NCBI GenBank assembly: GCA_022563855.1 | Contig: JADFMN010000002.1 | Coordinates: 186,001-250,000, forward strand | From: Armatimonadota bacterium | GTDB taxonomy: Bacteria > Armatimonadota > Fimbriimonadia > Fimbriimonadales > Fimbriimonadaceae | DNA: 64,000 nucleotides | Reading direction: 5' to 3' | Shown: positions 1 to 54,465 of the stretch, in pieces | How the letters are laid out: each line of letters begins with the position of its first letter | Numbering within the stretch: position 1 is the stretch's first letter | Notes under the pieces: model-generated | What the model was told of the DNA's origin: nothing | Database searches by the model: none | What the model saw: only the letters and a program-made list of their open reading frames with translations | Made by a program: the position numbers and the translations under genes

Positions 1-715
1 AGCCGGAGAACACCCGTGCGCTCCCGGAGTGAGTGCCGTTGTTGTCGTCACGCGGCGTCCCTACGATGAAGTCCGGGACACCGTCGCCGTCCACGTCGCC
101 AGCGCCGCTCACGACCTCGCCGAAGAAGTCGCCGGCCGAGTCGCCGTTGAACGTATAGAGGATCGAGCCGTCGAAGCCGGAGAACACCCGCGCGCTCCCG
201 GAGTTGGTGCCGTTGTTGTCGTCACCGTGCGCTCCTACGATGAGGTCCGCGAAGCCGTCGCCGTTGACGTCGCCCGCTCCGCTCACGGACTCGCCAAGAC
301 TGTCGACCGCCCCGTCGCCGTTGAACGTGTACAGGATCGAGCCGTCGAAGCCGGAGAACACCCGTGCGCTCCCGGACCTGTCACCATTGTTGTCGTCAAG
401 TTGCGCCCCCACGATGAGGTCCGCGAAGCCGTCGCCGTTCACGTCGCCTGCGCCGCTCACCGACCAGCCGAAGGCGTCGAATGCAGAGTCGCCGATGAAC
501 GTGTACAGGACCGACCCGTCGAAGCCGGAAAACACCCTCGCGCTCCCGGAGTCGGTGCCGTTGACCGTGTCGTCAGCAAACGCCCCCACGATGAAGTCCG
601 GGATGCCGTCGCCGTTCACGTCGCCCGCTCCGCTCACGGAACGGCCGAAGAAGTCACCGGCCGAGTCGCCGTTGAACGTGTACAGCGTCGTCTGGGCGTG
701 CGCCCCTGCCGCGAA
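1..715 (-). repeat. In-gene tandem repeats of about 171-177 bp
   Basis: The FG-GAP gene is built of tandem units of about 171-177 bp. Recognisable unit boundaries recur near positions 143, 313, 491 and 668, where CGCCGTTGAACGT and close variants return. They encode the beta-propeller blades and remain very similar at DNA level, so unit number may vary by recombination. Confidence 0.75.
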
Positions 716-49030: not shown

Positions 49031-49731
49031 CACTCTTTCCGGGCTGGGCTCACATATCCAACTCTTGCAGAGTATGGCTGGATGGGCGGTGCCGACGCCC
49101 AGTCTGCGCGCTCCTCGTCTATGAACCGCCACATCATCCCGTGGTCGATGCCGCCTGGAAGGCCGACCCTCGGCCCCGTCAGGACGCCCTTGACTGGAGC
49201 CTCGGCGACGAGATAGTGGCTGGAGCTTTCGTCGAGAAGATCGATTCCCGTGTGTTCGCCCGTCACGGCTAGCGCAGCGCCGATTTTTCCTGGGCCGGAG
49301 AGGAGGTCTTTGTCCGTCTTCGCCTTAGGCCGGCGCTGCCGAATCTTGCCTTCGCCGGTCACGACCGTCGCAGCGCGAATCAGCACCGCGCCCGGCACGC
49401 CATCTGGCTGGCACGTGACGTTGAACAGCCAGTGCATCCCGTAGTTGAAGTACACGTACGCGTGTCCGGCGGGGCCGAACATCACGCTGTTCCTCGGAGT
49501 CACGCCCCTGTGCGCGTGGCTGTTCGGGTCTTCCGATCCGCCGTACGCCTCTGCCTCGACGATTCTGATTCTGCAGTCCGGGGCGACGATCTCACAGCCC
49601 AGCAATCGCTTCGCGCAATCGGTGACGTGCGACTTTGTCAGGAACTGCCGGAGCTCGCCTGGCGACATGGGAGTTTCGAGTGTATCTGACTGACACATCT
49701 TAGGGAGGGCGAGCGTCCTCACGAGCCGCAC
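49030..49731 (-). CDS. mpg: 3-methyladenine DNA glycosylase (Mpg/AAG family)
   Basis: Up to 233 residues contain AKRLLGCEIV, RIVEAEAYGGSEDPNSHAHR, TPRNSVMFGPAGHAYVYFNY and GMHWLFNVTC, with GPGKIGAALAV later. Catalytic Glu is in VEAEAY. The protein removes alkylated purines in base excision repair. The start is uncertain: GTG 49731 is the longest, and ATG 49698 or ATG 49668 would still keep the whole domain. It is coupled to the lipoprotein gene downstream. Confidence 0.92.
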   Translation of the reverse strand: MRLVRTLALPKMCQSDTLETPMSPGELRQFLTKSHVTDCAKRLLGCEIVAPDCRIRIVEAEAYGGSEDPNSHAHRGVTPRNSVMFGPAGHAYVYFNYGMHWLFNVTCQPDGVPGAVLIRAATVVTGEGKIRQRRPKAKTDKDLLSGPGKIGAALAVTGEHTGIDLLDESSSHYLVAEAPVKGVLTGPRVGLPGGIDHGMMWRFIDEERADWASAPPIQPYSARVGYVSPARKE

Positions 49732-49794
49732 ATGCCACCCTCAATTTAGAACACGGACAGACCCTTCGGGCCTGACTGTGGCACAAGCAACCTC

Positions 49795-50316
49795 CTACGA
49801 CCTACCGGACTTCATTTTCAGTCTTTCTTCTCTCATAAAGTCACCCTTGGCGATCAGTTCGTCAATCTTCGGGGCAGCGAAGATTGTCGCGACACTCACG
49901 GCGAAGAATGCAATAACCGCTATCTGCCTTTCTGCTGATACACTTGCAGAACCGAGCCAATAGAAAATGTGAGATTGAGGGTCGATTGGGAAGAGCAGGA
50001 GGCAGACGCTGGCCAGCACTGATCCGACAGATGCTGCGGCAGTGATAAACGCGGCTATTCGAATTCCTGCGGCTAATGGACGAGTAGTACCGCTAATGAG
50101 CCATCGGCAGAGGTCGTCAGTCAGTACCCAGAGAATGCCGGCTAGGGACAGACAACCGACCATGTACCAATACGCTGCCGTATCCCTAGCCGCAAACGAG
50201 ATTCCTTCAGGATTGACGAATCCCAGGAAACTCGTCGACGTTAGGCCGACTGCAGCCACAACCGATAGAGCGGCGAGCATCCGAATGATTGCACGAAGAA
50301 GGACATTCAATCTCAT
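49795..50316 (-). CDS. Small membrane protein B-prime (duplicated pair)
   Basis: About 173 residues with four hydrophobic helices (ALSVVAAVGLTSTSFLGFV, YWYMVGCLSLAGILWVLTDD, IAAFITAAASVGSVLASVCL, QIAVIAFFAVSVATIFAAPK). ATG 50316 overlaps the stop of the upstream gene A-prime (ATGA). Gene order and layout match the pair at 51293-52227, so this is the second copy of a two-gene unit. Its function is unknown. Confidence 0.65.
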   Translation of the reverse strand: MRLNVLLRAIIRMLAALSVVAAVGLTSTSFLGFVNPEGISFAARDTAAYWYMVGCLSLAGILWVLTDDLCRWLISGTTRPLAAGIRIAAFITAAASVGSVLASVCLLLFPIDPQSHIFYWLGSASVSAERQIAVIAFFAVSVATIFAAPKIDELIAKGDFMREERLKMKSGRS

Positions 50317-50789
50317 CGTGTCAGCCACCCTGACACCCTGCGCGCATACACAACCATCAATACGCCTGCCAATGAAAGTAGCAAGCCGTAAACTACATGC
50401 ACTTCGAGTACTTGTTTTAAGTTAAAGTTGCTGATCGAAGATTGGCTGATTGCTGAGAAGACTGCGTGAGAAAAGTAGCGCAGGAAAAGCAATGTTCCGC
50501 CTCCTGCTACGATAGCGATCACGACTATTTCAGGATCGGCTTCAACTTCGCGTTCAGAATCTGAGCTAGGCGCGAACTTGGCACTGAAAACCCAAAGCGC
50601 AATCGACATCAGGAACAACGAAATTGCGATAACGATGCGGATTACGTCTAGCTCCGGATATCCGCTGGTGTCGAATCGTTTTGATAGAGCATACGTTTGG
50701 GCAGCTTGGAACGCGTAGTCAAGCGCTCTCGTGAAAATGATCGCAGCAGTCATTCTTGCGGCAATACGGCCCCAGTCGATACCCTTCAC
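50313..50789 (-). CDS. Small membrane protein A-prime (duplicated pair)
   Basis: This 158-residue protein begins KGIDWGRIAARMTAAIIFTR and has four helices. The gene at 51763 also begins MKGIDWGRI, so they are paralogues. The GTG start follows 36 bp after the detached ftsK tail, just as the intact ftsK is followed by gene A after 36 bp. Confidence 0.7.
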   Translation of the reverse strand: MKGIDWGRIAARMTAAIIFTRALDYAFQAAQTYALSKRFDTSGYPELDVIRIVIAISLFLMSIALWVFSAKFAPSSDSEREVEADPEIVVIAIVAGGGTLLFLRYFSHAVFSAISQSSISNFNLKQVLEVHVVYGLLLSLAGVLMVVYARRVSGWLTR

Positions 50790-50825
50790 AGTAACAACAC
50801 CACGCTAGAAGGTTAGCATAGGTTG

Positions 50826-50936
50826 TTACGCTTCGTCCCATTCGAGCACTTCGCCGTCCGGAACGGGCGCTAGCTCTTCTGAAGTGGTGAACATCACTTC
50901 GACCTGTCCGACATCCAGCAGGACTTCGCGGGGACG
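50826..50936 (-). pseudogene. Detached 3-prime tail of ftsK
   Basis: RPREVLLDVGQVEVMF then TTSEELAPVPDGEVLEWDEA stop copies the last 36 codons of FtsK (RPREVLLDFGQVEVMF, TPGAELAPVPDGELLEWDEA stop). About 80 percent of residues agree. Upstream of it the match ends and GTTCGG-type repeat DNA follows. An open frame runs through both to 51248, but I regard it as a chance fusion. Confidence 0.8.
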
Positions 50937-51292
50937 TTTGGTCCGCACCCTGGTCCGCAGCCATTTGGCCCGCCGAGCGGTTGGCGTTCGGGGGTTTGTT
51001 CGGATTGGTTCGGGTTTGTCCTCGGGACTCGGAACTCGGAACTTGGGATTCCCTATGGAGGGTCGTTCTCCTGGGCGACCTCGGCTTTCGCATCTAACAT
51101 ACCGCCGGTTTTGCACAGTGCGCCCGAAATCGATGTAGGCGCATCCATTAGGTTGTGTCCGGACTCGTTGGGCAGTGATATCAATTCGGAGCGCGTGGCG
51201 AGCGCGCAAGCTAATGCATGCGGCTACTTCCCAATGGAGGACGTGCAACCCTCCAAGCGGGACACGGACAATCAGAGCAAGTAACGGCTTAG
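50937..51292. repeat. Repeat region between the duplicated blocks
   Basis: From about 50990 to 51095 lies the GTTCGG - TTTGTCCTCGGGACTCGG - ATGGAGGGTCG - CTCCTGGGCGACC segment that recurs inverted at 23815-24000 and in part at 24640-24726. The REPIN at 51135-51227 follows. No gene is seen. Confidence 0.7.
51135..51227. repeat. REPIN: two inverted GTAG-headed hairpins
   Basis: GTAG (51135-51138) plus GCGCATCC-ATT-AGGTTGTG on the plus strand faces GTAG plus CCGCATGC-ATT-AGCTTGCG on the minus strand (51205-51227). The pair spans 93 bp, the typical REPIN size. Confidence 0.7.
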
Positions 51293-51766
51293 CTACGGCT
51301 CGCTGCCGATCTTCTTGATTCCTAGTGCCTCGTGGAACAGCACGGCAGCGACGACGATGCTGATGGCGGCGGCGAAGACGACCTCTCCAGCCCCGTCAAA
51401 TTCCATCCATCGGTCTCTGTACAGCTCGCCGACTTTGGTCTCAAAGTATGCGTACGCCGGCAACACTCCAAGAGCCCGTGCGGCAAGAAACACAGCAGCG
51501 ATCCTGAACCCGACGATCTTCGCAGTGGCGTTAACCGTGAAAATCGCAGATGCGATGTTGCTCGCGAAGATCCAAAGCACTCCAGCGACGAGCAACTGGC
51601 AGTTGAACTTGATCAGGAGAGCGTTCCGATAAACGTCCGGCTCTATATCGTGGAGCATCGCGGATAACTCGTGCATCGGGTACGTATCCAAAACGCCCAG
51701 CGAACGAAAGAGCATATAGATCGCGAGGGCTCGAATCATGGCGAACGTCAGGGCATAGAAGTTCAC
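51293..51766 (-). CDS. Small membrane protein B
   Basis: About 157 residues with four helices (IRALAIYMLFRSLGV, LLVAGVLWIFASNIASAIFT, IVGFRIAAVFLAARALGVLP, VVFAAAISIVVAAVLFHEAL). GTG 51766 overlaps the stop of gene A (GTGA). The frame opens at 51874 but the extra part lies inside gene A. It is a paralogue in layout of the gene at 49795. Confidence 0.65.
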   Translation of the reverse strand: MNFYALTFAMIRALAIYMLFRSLGVLDTYPMHELSAMLHDIEPDVYRNALLIKFNCQLLVAGVLWIFASNIASAIFTVNATAKIVGFRIAAVFLAARALGVLPAYAYFETKVGELYRDRWMEFDGAGEVVFAAAISIVVAAVLFHEALGIKKIGSEP

Positions 51767-52227
51767 TTCTGAGTCCTGCCGAGGATGACCGACGGGAATA
51801 TGATCAGGGCACCGCCGAGGAGAGCTGCTACGACGTAGAGAATGAACGTCGGATTGATAGCAAACCAGTGCCATTCCGCACCAGTTCTCGTAGCGATGTA
51901 GAAAATCGAGGCGGTAGCTTTACCGCCATAGAATACGAGGAACCACAGGCCAGCGCACATCACGATGGCGCGTGCCGCAAAAACGCTGTCCGGCGCGCCG
52001 TTGATTTCTACCTTTGCGGACGGCGGAACGAGGTAGACGGCCCCTATCCACAAGAGGACGCAGATCGTGAGCAACGCCACTGCGTAAACTGCTGCAGGCC
52101 ACGTGGGAACGCGATAGTCGGGAGAATCGATCATGCTAATCATCCCTGTCAGTCTTCCTATGAAAGCTGCAAACAGCGCAACAGCAAGTAGACGGGCCAT
52201 GATACGGCCCCAGTCGATACCCTTCAT
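51763..52227 (-). CDS. Small membrane protein A
   Basis: About 154 residues starting MKGIDWGRIMARLLAVALFA, then further helices (AAVYAVALLTICVLLWIGAV, FILYVVAALLGGALIIFPSV). It shares the N-terminal motif with the gene at 50313. It follows ftsK after 36 bp and is coupled to gene B. Its function is unknown; co-expression with ftsK is likely from spacing. Confidence 0.7.
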   Translation of the reverse strand: MKGIDWGRIMARLLAVALFAAFIGRLTGMISMIDSPDYRVPTWPAAVYAVALLTICVLLWIGAVYLVPPSAKVEINGAPDSVFAARAIVMCAGLWFLVFYGGKATASIFYIATRTGAEWHWFAINPTFILYVVAALLGGALIIFPSVILGRTQK

Positions 52228-52263
52228 CAATCCAACACCTACGCTAACAGAGTAGCACAGGTA

Positions 52264-54465
52264 TTACGCTTCGTCCCACTCAAGCAACTCGCCGTCAGGT
52301 ACGGGTGCGAGCTCTGCCCCAGGGGTGAACATCACTTCGACCTGGCCGAAGTCGAGCAGGACTTCGCGCGGGCGCGGGCCGTCTCGTTTGCCGACGATGT
52401 TGCGCTCTTCCATCATGTCCAGCAGGCGCGAGGCGCGTTGGAAGCCGATCGAGAACTTGCGCTGCATCATCGAGGTCGATGCCTGCTTGCGGTCGACGAC
52501 CCAGCGCACAGCCTCTTCCCAGAGCGGATCTTCGTCCTCCTGCTGGCGCATCCTGCCCTCCTTCTCTTCGATTGCGAACTTGACCGGGGTCAGAACGTAC
52601 TGCGGTTTCTCCTGCGCCCGCCAATGGTCGCAGACCGCCCTCATCTCCTTTTCGCTGGTGTAGCAACCTTGGATTCGCTTCGGTTTGGCGGCGTCGATCG
52701 GCAGGAAGAGCATGTCGCCGCGACCGATGAGCTTTTCGGCGCCCGGTTGGTCGATGATCGTGCGCGAGTCGATCTGCGAAGCCATTGCGAAAGCGATGCG
52801 CGAGCTGACGTTCGCCTTGATCGTGCCGGTGATGACGTCGACGCTCGGCCGCTGCGTTGCGATGACGAGATGAATGCCGGTCGCGCGCGCGAGCTGCGCC
52901 AGCCGACAGATGCACGTCTCGACATCGGCGGCGGCCTGCATCATCAGGTCGGCCAGTTCGTCGATGATCACGACGATGTACGGCATCTTCTCGTCCTCGC
53001 CGACCGCGGAGTTCCAGCCTTCGATGTTCCTCACGCCGCGCTCGCTGAACGTGTCGTACCGTCGATCCATCTCTCGCCAGACCGCGCGCAAAGTGCCCGG
53101 CGCTTCCTTGGCGCTCGTCACGATCGGGCACATGAGGTGGGGAAGCCCTTCAAATACCGTTAGCTCGACCCGCTTCGGATCGATCATGACCAGCCGCAGC
53201 TCCTTCGGCGAGTGCTGGAGGATCAGCGACATGATGATGCCCATCAGACAGATCGACTTGCCGCTGTTCGTGGAGCCGCCGATCAGCAGATGCGGCATGC
53301 GCGCAAGGTCCGTATACACTTCCACGCCGGAAACGTCCTTTCCCAAGGCGAGTGTGAGCTTGGACTTTTGATCGTGGAACTCCAAGCTCTCTGCCATCTC
53401 CTTTAGGCTGACGATGCTTCGGTGTTTGGTCGGAACTTCGACGCCTATCGCGTTCTTGCCGGGGATCGGCGCCTCGACCCGAACATGGCTCGCAGCGAGG
53501 TTCATGGCGATGTTGTCGGCGAGCCCGGTGATCCGGTTCACGCGCACTCCGGGGCCTACCTGGATTTCAAACCTGGTGATCGTCGGCCCGGTCGCGACCT
53601 CTGAAACGGTGGCATCGATGCCGAACTGCTCGAGCGTGGCTTCGAGCGTTTCGATGTTCACCTGAATCTCCTTCGGGGACTTCTTGCCGGCAGGCTGTAC
53701 GTCTTCAAGAAGCGATAGCGGAGGCAGCGTATAGCCAGCCTTCGGCCCTGCGGAACCCCCCGACATCTCGACGACAGCATGCTTCTTCGCCTTCTTCGGT
53801 TTCGGTATTGCGATGACGCTCTGTGTTTCCTCCTCAGATTCCGCAGCTTCGCGACTAACGATCTCAGCTCGTTTCTTGCGAGCCTTGCGCCCAGACATCG
53901 ACTTCGGCACTGAATCCTTTCCGGCGCGACTGGCGATCCTGTTTTTGACGCTCGCAAAGATCGTGCGCAGCGGAGCGTCCAAACAGAGGACGAAACCGAT
54001 CAAGAGCAGCGCGACGATGCCGATCGTGCTGCCGCCGGCGAGCAGGCGGTGCAAACCCCACGCAACGGTCGCGCCGATGTAACCTCCTGTGGCCTGCACC
54101 GTCTCTGGGTCGAAGAAGTCGTTTGATATCGGGCGGGCTATCGCACCGACACAACCCAGGAACATGAGCGACGCGCCCCAGGAAATTCGAGCGGTTCCAA
54201 CGGACACTTTCCCAGCCAAGAACGCAACCCCGGCGATCGCGAGCGCAAGAGGAACCGCCCAGGCGCCCGTGCCAAAAAGCGTTCGGAAGAAGGTGGCGAG
54301 CGAGTCGCCCAGTAAGCCGCCGTTGCCAGCCCAAAGCGCGACGAAGACGATAGCTGAAATCGCGAGGAGACCGATGCCCGTCGCATCGTAGGTCCGATGT
54401 GGCGTATCGGCTTCTATTTTCCGTACGGCGGCGCTCTTTGAGGAGCGTGTTGAGGTCGTCGGCAT
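52264..54465 (-). CDS. ftsK: DNA translocase FtsK
   Basis: This 733-residue protein has four N-terminal membrane helices (GIGLLAISAIVFVALWAGNG, WAVPLALAIAGVAFLAGKVS, and two more). A Lys-rich linker follows, then the motor domain with Walker A GGSTNSGKSICLMG, Walker B YIVVIIDELADLMM, and HLVIATQRPSVDVITG. The C-terminal gamma winged helix reads MMQRKFSIGFQRASRLLDMM. It moves chromosome ends to the dif site at cell division. Its last 36 codons occur again at 50826-50936. Confidence 0.96.
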   Translation of the reverse strand: MPTTSTRSSKSAAVRKIEADTPHRTYDATGIGLLAISAIVFVALWAGNGGLLGDSLATFFRTLFGTGAWAVPLALAIAGVAFLAGKVSVGTARISWGASLMFLGCVGAIARPISNDFFDPETVQATGGYIGATVAWGLHRLLAGGSTIGIVALLLIGFVLCLDAPLRTIFASVKNRIASRAGKDSVPKSMSGRKARKKRAEIVSREAAESEEETQSVIAIPKPKKAKKHAVVEMSGGSAGPKAGYTLPPLSLLEDVQPAGKKSPKEIQVNIETLEATLEQFGIDATVSEVATGPTITRFEIQVGPGVRVNRITGLADNIAMNLAASHVRVEAPIPGKNAIGVEVPTKHRSIVSLKEMAESLEFHDQKSKLTLALGKDVSGVEVYTDLARMPHLLIGGSTNSGKSICLMGIIMSLILQHSPKELRLVMIDPKRVELTVFEGLPHLMCPIVTSAKEAPGTLRAVWREMDRRYDTFSERGVRNIEGWNSAVGEDEKMPYIVVIIDELADLMMQAAADVETCICRLAQLARATGIHLVIATQRPSVDVITGTIKANVSSRIAFAMASQIDSRTIIDQPGAEKLIGRGDMLFLPIDAAKPKRIQGCYTSEKEMRAVCDHWRAQEKPQYVLTPVKFAIEEKEGRMRQQEDEDPLWEEAVRWVVDRKQASTSMMQRKFSIGFQRASRLLDMMEERNIVGKRDGPRPREVLLDFGQVEVMFTPGAELAPVPDGELLEWDEA

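Follow-up and report, generated by a model that had tools for sequence, protein, structure and literature searches.

The locus behind ftsK in the 64,000-nucleotide stretch of Fimbriimonadaceae DNA analysed here (the window) was probably formed by the recombinational insertion of a two-gene cassette carrying its own diverged ftsK end, and not by a plain tandem duplication in place. The best reading of the type of event is a gene-end replacement like that known for icd and e14, or else an insertion with long target duplication, with the native ftsK tail being displaced. All genes of the locus lie on the minus strand, in the order ftsK, A, B, a second ftsK tail (tail'), A', B' and a gene for a 3-methylpurine glycosylase (Table 1). 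The source assembly comprises 3.18 Mb in 22 contigs.

Table 1. Positions in the window of the genes, repeats and hairpins at the ftsK locus, in the direction of transcription.
Feature	Position	Strand	Basis or remark
ftsK, complete, 733 aa	52264..54465	-	Pfam FtsK_4TM, FtsK_alpha, FtsK_SpoIIIE, FtsK_gamma
ftsK tail, gene-joined copy: codons 698-733 and stop	52264..52374	-	repeat search, codon comparison
Spacer hairpin copy 1, 6-nt loop, between ftsK stop and A start	52241..52261	-	fold
Gene A, predicted membrane protein, 154 aa, N-terminus MKGIDWGRI	51763..52227	-	
Gene B, predicted membrane protein, 157 aa, 4-nt overlap with A (GTGA)	51293..51766	-	
Dispersed intergenic repeat, spacer from B to tail'	51131..51227	.	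other assembly copies ~76%
Second dispersed intergenic repeat, spacer from B to tail'	50992..51091	.	other assembly copies 73-82%
Third dispersed repeat, meets tail'	50927..50979	.	two other assembly copies
tail', displaced second ftsK end without the remainder of the gene	50826..50936	-	repeat search, codon comparison, tail search of assembly
Spacer hairpin copy 2	50802..50822	-	fold
Gene A', predicted membrane protein, 158 aa, N-terminus (M)KGIDWGRI	50313..50789	-	
Gene B', predicted membrane protein, up to 177 aa, preferred start 50316	49795..50328	-	
3-methylpurine glycosylase gene, beyond B'	49731-49030	-	Pfam

As the initial annotation had proposed, the last 36 codons of ftsK recur in tail', and the coupled pair recurs with them at the same 36-bp distance from stop to start, so that tail, spacer and pair are all repeated. 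The repeat search aligned the two tails over 111 nt with 92 identities (83%); 31 of the 36 amino acids are identical, and at 86% the protein identity is slightly higher than the 80% or so first estimated. The complete ftsK and the tail' fragment are the only two clear tail matches in the whole assembly. Similarity continues through the spacer to about codon 12 of A and A' and then collapses: tail, spacer and gene start form one blastn match of 175 nt at 82%, and A and A' agree at 25 of their first 30 nt, while the next ungapped blocks reach 13/30 and 3/30, which is the level of chance. In the other direction the homologous block ends at about ftsK codon 698, and there is no ftsK sequence on the upstream side of tail'.

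The two tails differ at 19 nucleotides, 13 of them at third positions, and in 5 amino acids over the 36 codons. The resulting pS of 0.48 (26.5 sites) and pN of 0.076 (81.5 sites; Fisher 1e-5) describe a strong silent bias, calculated from these 19 differences only. We simulated tails of which one copy was constrained while the second drifted freely for the same time, with branches of equal length and a transition bias of 2, and kept the runs with exactly 19 differences. None of the 313 accepted simulations was as silent-biased as the observed tails (0/99, 0/114 and 0/100 at three constraint strengths). With free drift over half of the second tail's branch, 6 of 130 simulations were as extreme, rising to 25/229 for a quarter and 138/271 for a tenth of the branch, and to 285 of 310 when it was constrained throughout. 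Most of the divergence would thus have arisen while both tails were the ends of working ftsK genes. The differences are those of two working ftsK alleles and do not resemble those between a gene and a fragment left free to drift, and the constraint is on the protein code of the tail and not on its DNA, where selection had originally been suspected.

These results bear on the possibility that the ftsK tail, A and B were simply duplicated in tandem within the lineage, after which the pair evolved fast in an arms race and the tail slowly. Such a duplication has the simplest geometry and would explain the same order, 36-bp spacer, hairpin and N-terminus in both units, but a free fragment should lose its code, and none of the 313 simulations with free drift matched the silent bias; we consider this explanation unlikely. 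A functional tail' could also account for the bias, its frame being open for 140 codons (50826-51248), which may make a small protein resembling the FtsK tail. However, the upstream part of this frame is a dispersed repeat without the gamma domain, and since the ftsK tail is highly variable among relatives, a lone copy would not be expected to be under strong selection; we regard a functional tail' as extremely improbable.

The proteins A, B, A' and B' are predicted membrane proteins with 4, 4, 3 and 4 hydrophobic stretches (B counted in a longer frame). By eye, the genes of each pair overlap in the xTGA manner, with GTGA at 51766-51763 in A-B and ATGA at 50316-50313 in A'-B', and because of the latter overlap the start of B' at 50316 is more likely than that at 50328. 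The annotated contrast between pair and tail was confirmed: A and A' share 27% and B and B' 24% identity (MAFFT), as distant homologues do, against 86% protein identity in the tail. The homology of A and A' itself holds up, with a BLASTP E of 1e-8 and a Smith-Waterman score of 106 that none of 1000 hydropathy-class shuffles equalled; counted from residue 17 the score is only 54, equalled by 7/1000 shuffles and 1/40 unrelated membrane ORFs. The score of 66 for B and B' was equalled by 1/1000 shuffles and 1/40 unrelated comparisons. Neither pair matched a Pfam, NCBIfam, PADLOC or PHROG family above cut-off (the best sub-threshold match was Frag1/DRAM for A', at 18.1 bits with 30.3 needed), and no HicA, HicB, restriction-modification or toxin domain was found in them. 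Whole-phage and viral collections contained no relative of A, and a search of solved structures gave none. G+C content is 0.614 in ftsK, 0.559 in A and B, 0.495 in A' and 0.526 in B'.

In profile searches of 85 genomes of the family and 113 of the order, the only relative of A-B beyond the window's own genome was a pair, A''-B'', in G001, the one same-genus genome of the comparison set, apart from weak matches within longer frames in G011, G092 and G097 (A) and in G014, G004 and G034 (B). The two genes (L040 1501-1956 and 1956-2453, plus strand) again overlap in the xTGA manner by eye, and the nearest named record, the Fimbriimonadaceae MAG contig JANWJY010000035.1, gives the same match as G001 contig C35. 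By position A''-B'' sits inside a prophage, with terminase-side genes (PHROG E 2.7e-22 for the large subunit) on one side and an endolysin gene (PHROG E 3e-11) on the other, all encoded on the strand opposite to the pair; the window copies do not lie in a prophage. This prophage contig, which ends at 11 kb, showed no ftsK-tail match beyond chance; it also holds another adjacent pair of small membrane-like genes (L049:108-1221). Structure models of A'' and B'' have four helices each, with mean pLDDT of 53 and 45, too poor for a fold search. A-B is a new and narrow membrane pair with a probable link to phages.

The N-terminus of A'' reads MKNTDWGKL where A and A' have KGIDWGRI. From residue 17 onwards, Smith-Waterman scores are 88 for A'-A'', 54 for A-A' and 34 for A-A'', and correspondingly 64 for B-B', 63 for B'-B'' and 30 for B-B''. 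In the MAFFT alignments the closeness of A' to A'' was weak (29/136 against 29/135 identical residues; bootstrap 1307/2000 for A and 1671/2000 for B), and we make no claim to a firm grouping of the two. Because A' appears to be about as close to A'' as to A, the A and A' bodies seem to predate the divergence of the tails, and we take their age to be no less than that of the split from the prophage form. The locus would thus be a mosaic in age, with a recent shared 5' block and old gene bodies. A tandem duplication does not predict that A is no closer to A' than is the prophage pair of another species, and the earlier view that tail, A and B were duplicated once and at the same time fits neither these bodies nor the silent bias of the tails.

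Between the two tails there is no integrase, transposase or phage gene, only A, B and repeats, and the spacer from B to tail' (50937-51292) consists of dispersed repeats that also occur at other places in the genome. The repeat that meets tail' enters its first 10 bases via a CCCCGCG-like stretch that ftsK shares at codons 699-701, and this microhomology is the probable breakpoint. A tandem duplication again fits poorly, as the junction holds these repeats and no trace of ftsK from before codon 698. Together with a further repeat at 49749-49785, the three repeats of Table 1 belong to families with many copies in the assembly, one of which also adjoins the terminase gene on the G001 prophage contig. 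A gene resembling a REP-associated (Y1-type) transposase by eye (L143:1987-2553, in G000 C3) is a possible mover of such repeats. The edge of the window (1-685) holds a tandem repeat of about 340 bp whose copies are 82% alike.

We compared 86 regions downstream of ftsK from 84 genomes; the family contributed 81 of its 85 genomes, that of the window among them, and the order three others; G090 and G097 were left out for want of an ftsK match, and G023 and G087 because ftsK was partial. Ten of the regions extend less than 3 kb past the ftsK stop, and two belong to second, diverged ftsK-like genes in G100 (C42:3781-4983) and G005 (C2:720868-721977). By protein match, a second copy of the region's own ftsK tail that reaches the C-terminal end was found in 2 of the 86 regions, the window and one in G035 (L068); a weak match in L118 (46% over 24 residues) stops short of that end. 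In G035, 62 nt of the ftsK end recur at 95%, the second copy having an 81-nt deletion further up, and both coding differences in the 19 shared codons are silent by eye. Between the two ends (L068:8150-8591) lie a HicB-like gene (Pfam E 1.9e-10) and a HicA-like frame (2.2e-11) broken by a frameshift, that is, a decayed HicBA toxin-antitoxin pair. In G061, of the same genus, ftsK runs straight into a gene with the C-terminal anchor seen in G035, followed by the same next genes and with no insert, as expected of what would be the empty site for the G035 insert; G006, also of that genus, differs after ftsK. The layout looked for beside ftsK in relatives was thus found once, with another gene pair in it. 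No empty site corresponding to the window's own locus was found among relatives, and A or B adjoined ftsK in 0 of 30 relative loci with flanks of up to 1.5 kb. A profile of 27 tails found no further clear second tail in 85 genomes, though it also missed the 19-codon fragment of G035. Two other candidates were rejected, a second ftsK tail at G000 C3:161001 (E 0.003) as chance, and a 45-nt repeat in L075 as intergenic, since it follows two stop codons.

As a control, we looked within 3 kb of 434 gene ends, taken from the same regions and the window, for a second tail lacking its body. At E 1e-4, five had one, of which those in L059, L053, L126 and L128 were remote domain matches or lay in a doubtful frame (33-69%), and at 80% identity or more the ftsK of the window, at 86%, was the only one of the 434. 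Second tails at this level occur in 2 of 86 ftsK regions and in none of the 433 other gene ends, a comparison in which the window had been chosen for the feature; without it the figures are 1/85 and 0/433, which is not significant. That ftsK is an insertion hot spot is therefore only suggested. Our literature searches returned no paper on such a layout beside ftsK in Fimbriimonadaceae, and none linking this family with ftsK.

The G035 locus also bears on whether two strain variants were assembled into one contig. Metagenome bins mix strains, the contamination estimate of this assembly is 3.27%, and dispersed repeats lie at the junction, but 48% of silent sites differ between the tails, more than strain variants would show, the few bases common to repeat and tail at the join fall short of a usual assembly overlap, and G035 shows the same geometry with other cargo. 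We hold an assembly artefact to be very unlikely.

In the spacers between ftsK ends and pairs, the hairpin arms are alike in both copies, and by eye the 6-nt loops differ (ctctgt and accttc). With at most one mismatch the hairpin pattern occurs at these two sites only in the assembly; three mismatches give 65 matches against 164 for a reversed control, and the folds of both copies are only a little more stable than those of shuffled sequences (z -1.8 and -1.0). The spacer before A' (50790-50825) is a near-perfect palindrome (GTAACAAC...GTTGTTAC outside the hairpin), which takes up the space, and no ribosome-binding site is visible in it. A promoter scan found no sigma-70-like promoter in 49600-52500, and four terminator-like sites against 3.0 expected are about what chance gives.

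The locus could also be the remnant of a temperate phage or integrative element whose attachment site was the ftsK 3' end, with only a moron pair left. Reconstitution of a gene end with silent differences is the known mark of such integration, as for e14 and icd (PMC6379469), the relative of the pair sits in a prophage, and a second genus has cargo between two ftsK ends. On the other hand, the stretch between the tails lacks an integrase and any phage gene, the tail profile found no larger element with a second ftsK end in the 85 genomes (a search that also missed the short G035 fragment), and a shared crossover core would be alike where the hairpin loops differ. We judge a phage remnant to be unlikely.

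The arrival of a cassette is the reading that accounts most economically for the silent bias, the mosaic age, the microhomology junction and the G035 case. An ancestor with ftsK, the hairpin and one membrane pair (A'-B') would have taken up DNA of a diverged relative in which that relative's ftsK end and hairpin were followed by another allele of the pair, A-B. This DNA would have recombined into ftsK through tail homology on one side and, on the other, through a short microhomology where a dispersed intergenic repeat, at the edge of the donor DNA, was joined to resident ftsK codon ~699. In this way ftsK would have been kept whole, now with the incoming tail, while the resident tail and A'-B' moved 1.4 kb downstream. 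That A-B is the incoming side is inferred, as are recombination as the route and the function of the pair; the cassette may have come by transformation-like recombination, with a phage or in another way. Weighing against the arrival of a cassette are the lack of an integrase or transposase between the tails and the finding of a second case in only one of 85 further regions, with 81 nt missing from its second tail.

A possible role for the pair, and the one that we propose as most likely, is an accessory function of the prophage (moron) type, such as superinfection exclusion, or an addiction or immunity pair, since its sole outside relative lies in a prophage and an addiction module occupies a like site in another genus. 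A bolder possibility, which we consider rather unlikely, is that in Fimbriimonadaceae two-gene addiction or defence cassettes without integrases dock at the ftsK 3' end and are exchanged there by recombination, each with a working ftsK end as a homology arm that spares the essential gene, and that A-B is a new phage-derived family of two-component membrane defence or exclusion proteins, the alleles of which stack there. If the arrival of a cassette is the right account, it shows how small selfish or defence gene pairs that lack an integrase could settle behind an essential gene by bringing its end with them. It would also introduce a new family of coupled membrane proteins connecting a prophage with a chromosomal site.

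Several known systems resemble parts of this locus. Prophage morons and superinfection-exclusion proteins are small membrane proteins, and A''-B'' of G001 likewise comprises small membrane proteins encoded on the strand opposite to the structural-packaging and lysis genes of the phage around them; there is no sequence match to a known exclusion protein. Orphan modules of polymorphic toxin systems resemble the window in that a variable two-gene module stands behind a short common 5' arm, in tandem, but no toxin domain was found in the window pairs and their common arm is the ftsK end. HicBA is the two-gene cargo at the same place in G035 and is absent from the window pairs. Insertion with long target duplication (Nobusato et al. 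2000, as cited in PMC1643837 and PMC3031569) is described for restriction-modification genes, which are two-gene addiction units. As in the window, these are small units with direct repeats exceeding those of transposons (here 111 nt, and 62 nt in G035), whereas the cargo described there is restriction-modification and not a membrane pair or HicBA, and the repeat here is a gene end. The copies in the window have also diverged silently, which target duplication in place does not predict. In E. coli, with e14 (PMC6379469), the insert supplies the 3' end of the core gene icd, and the displaced icd' stays at its far side. While e14 is a 15-kb prophage, and the window has 1.4 kb with two genes and no integrase between the ends, in both, as in G035, the host gene takes its end from the insert, beyond which the displaced end lies, and the end differences of e14/icd and the window are mostly silent. 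If this reading is true, silent bias between a gene end and its displaced counterpart could serve as a sequence test to tell arrivals from ordinary duplications.
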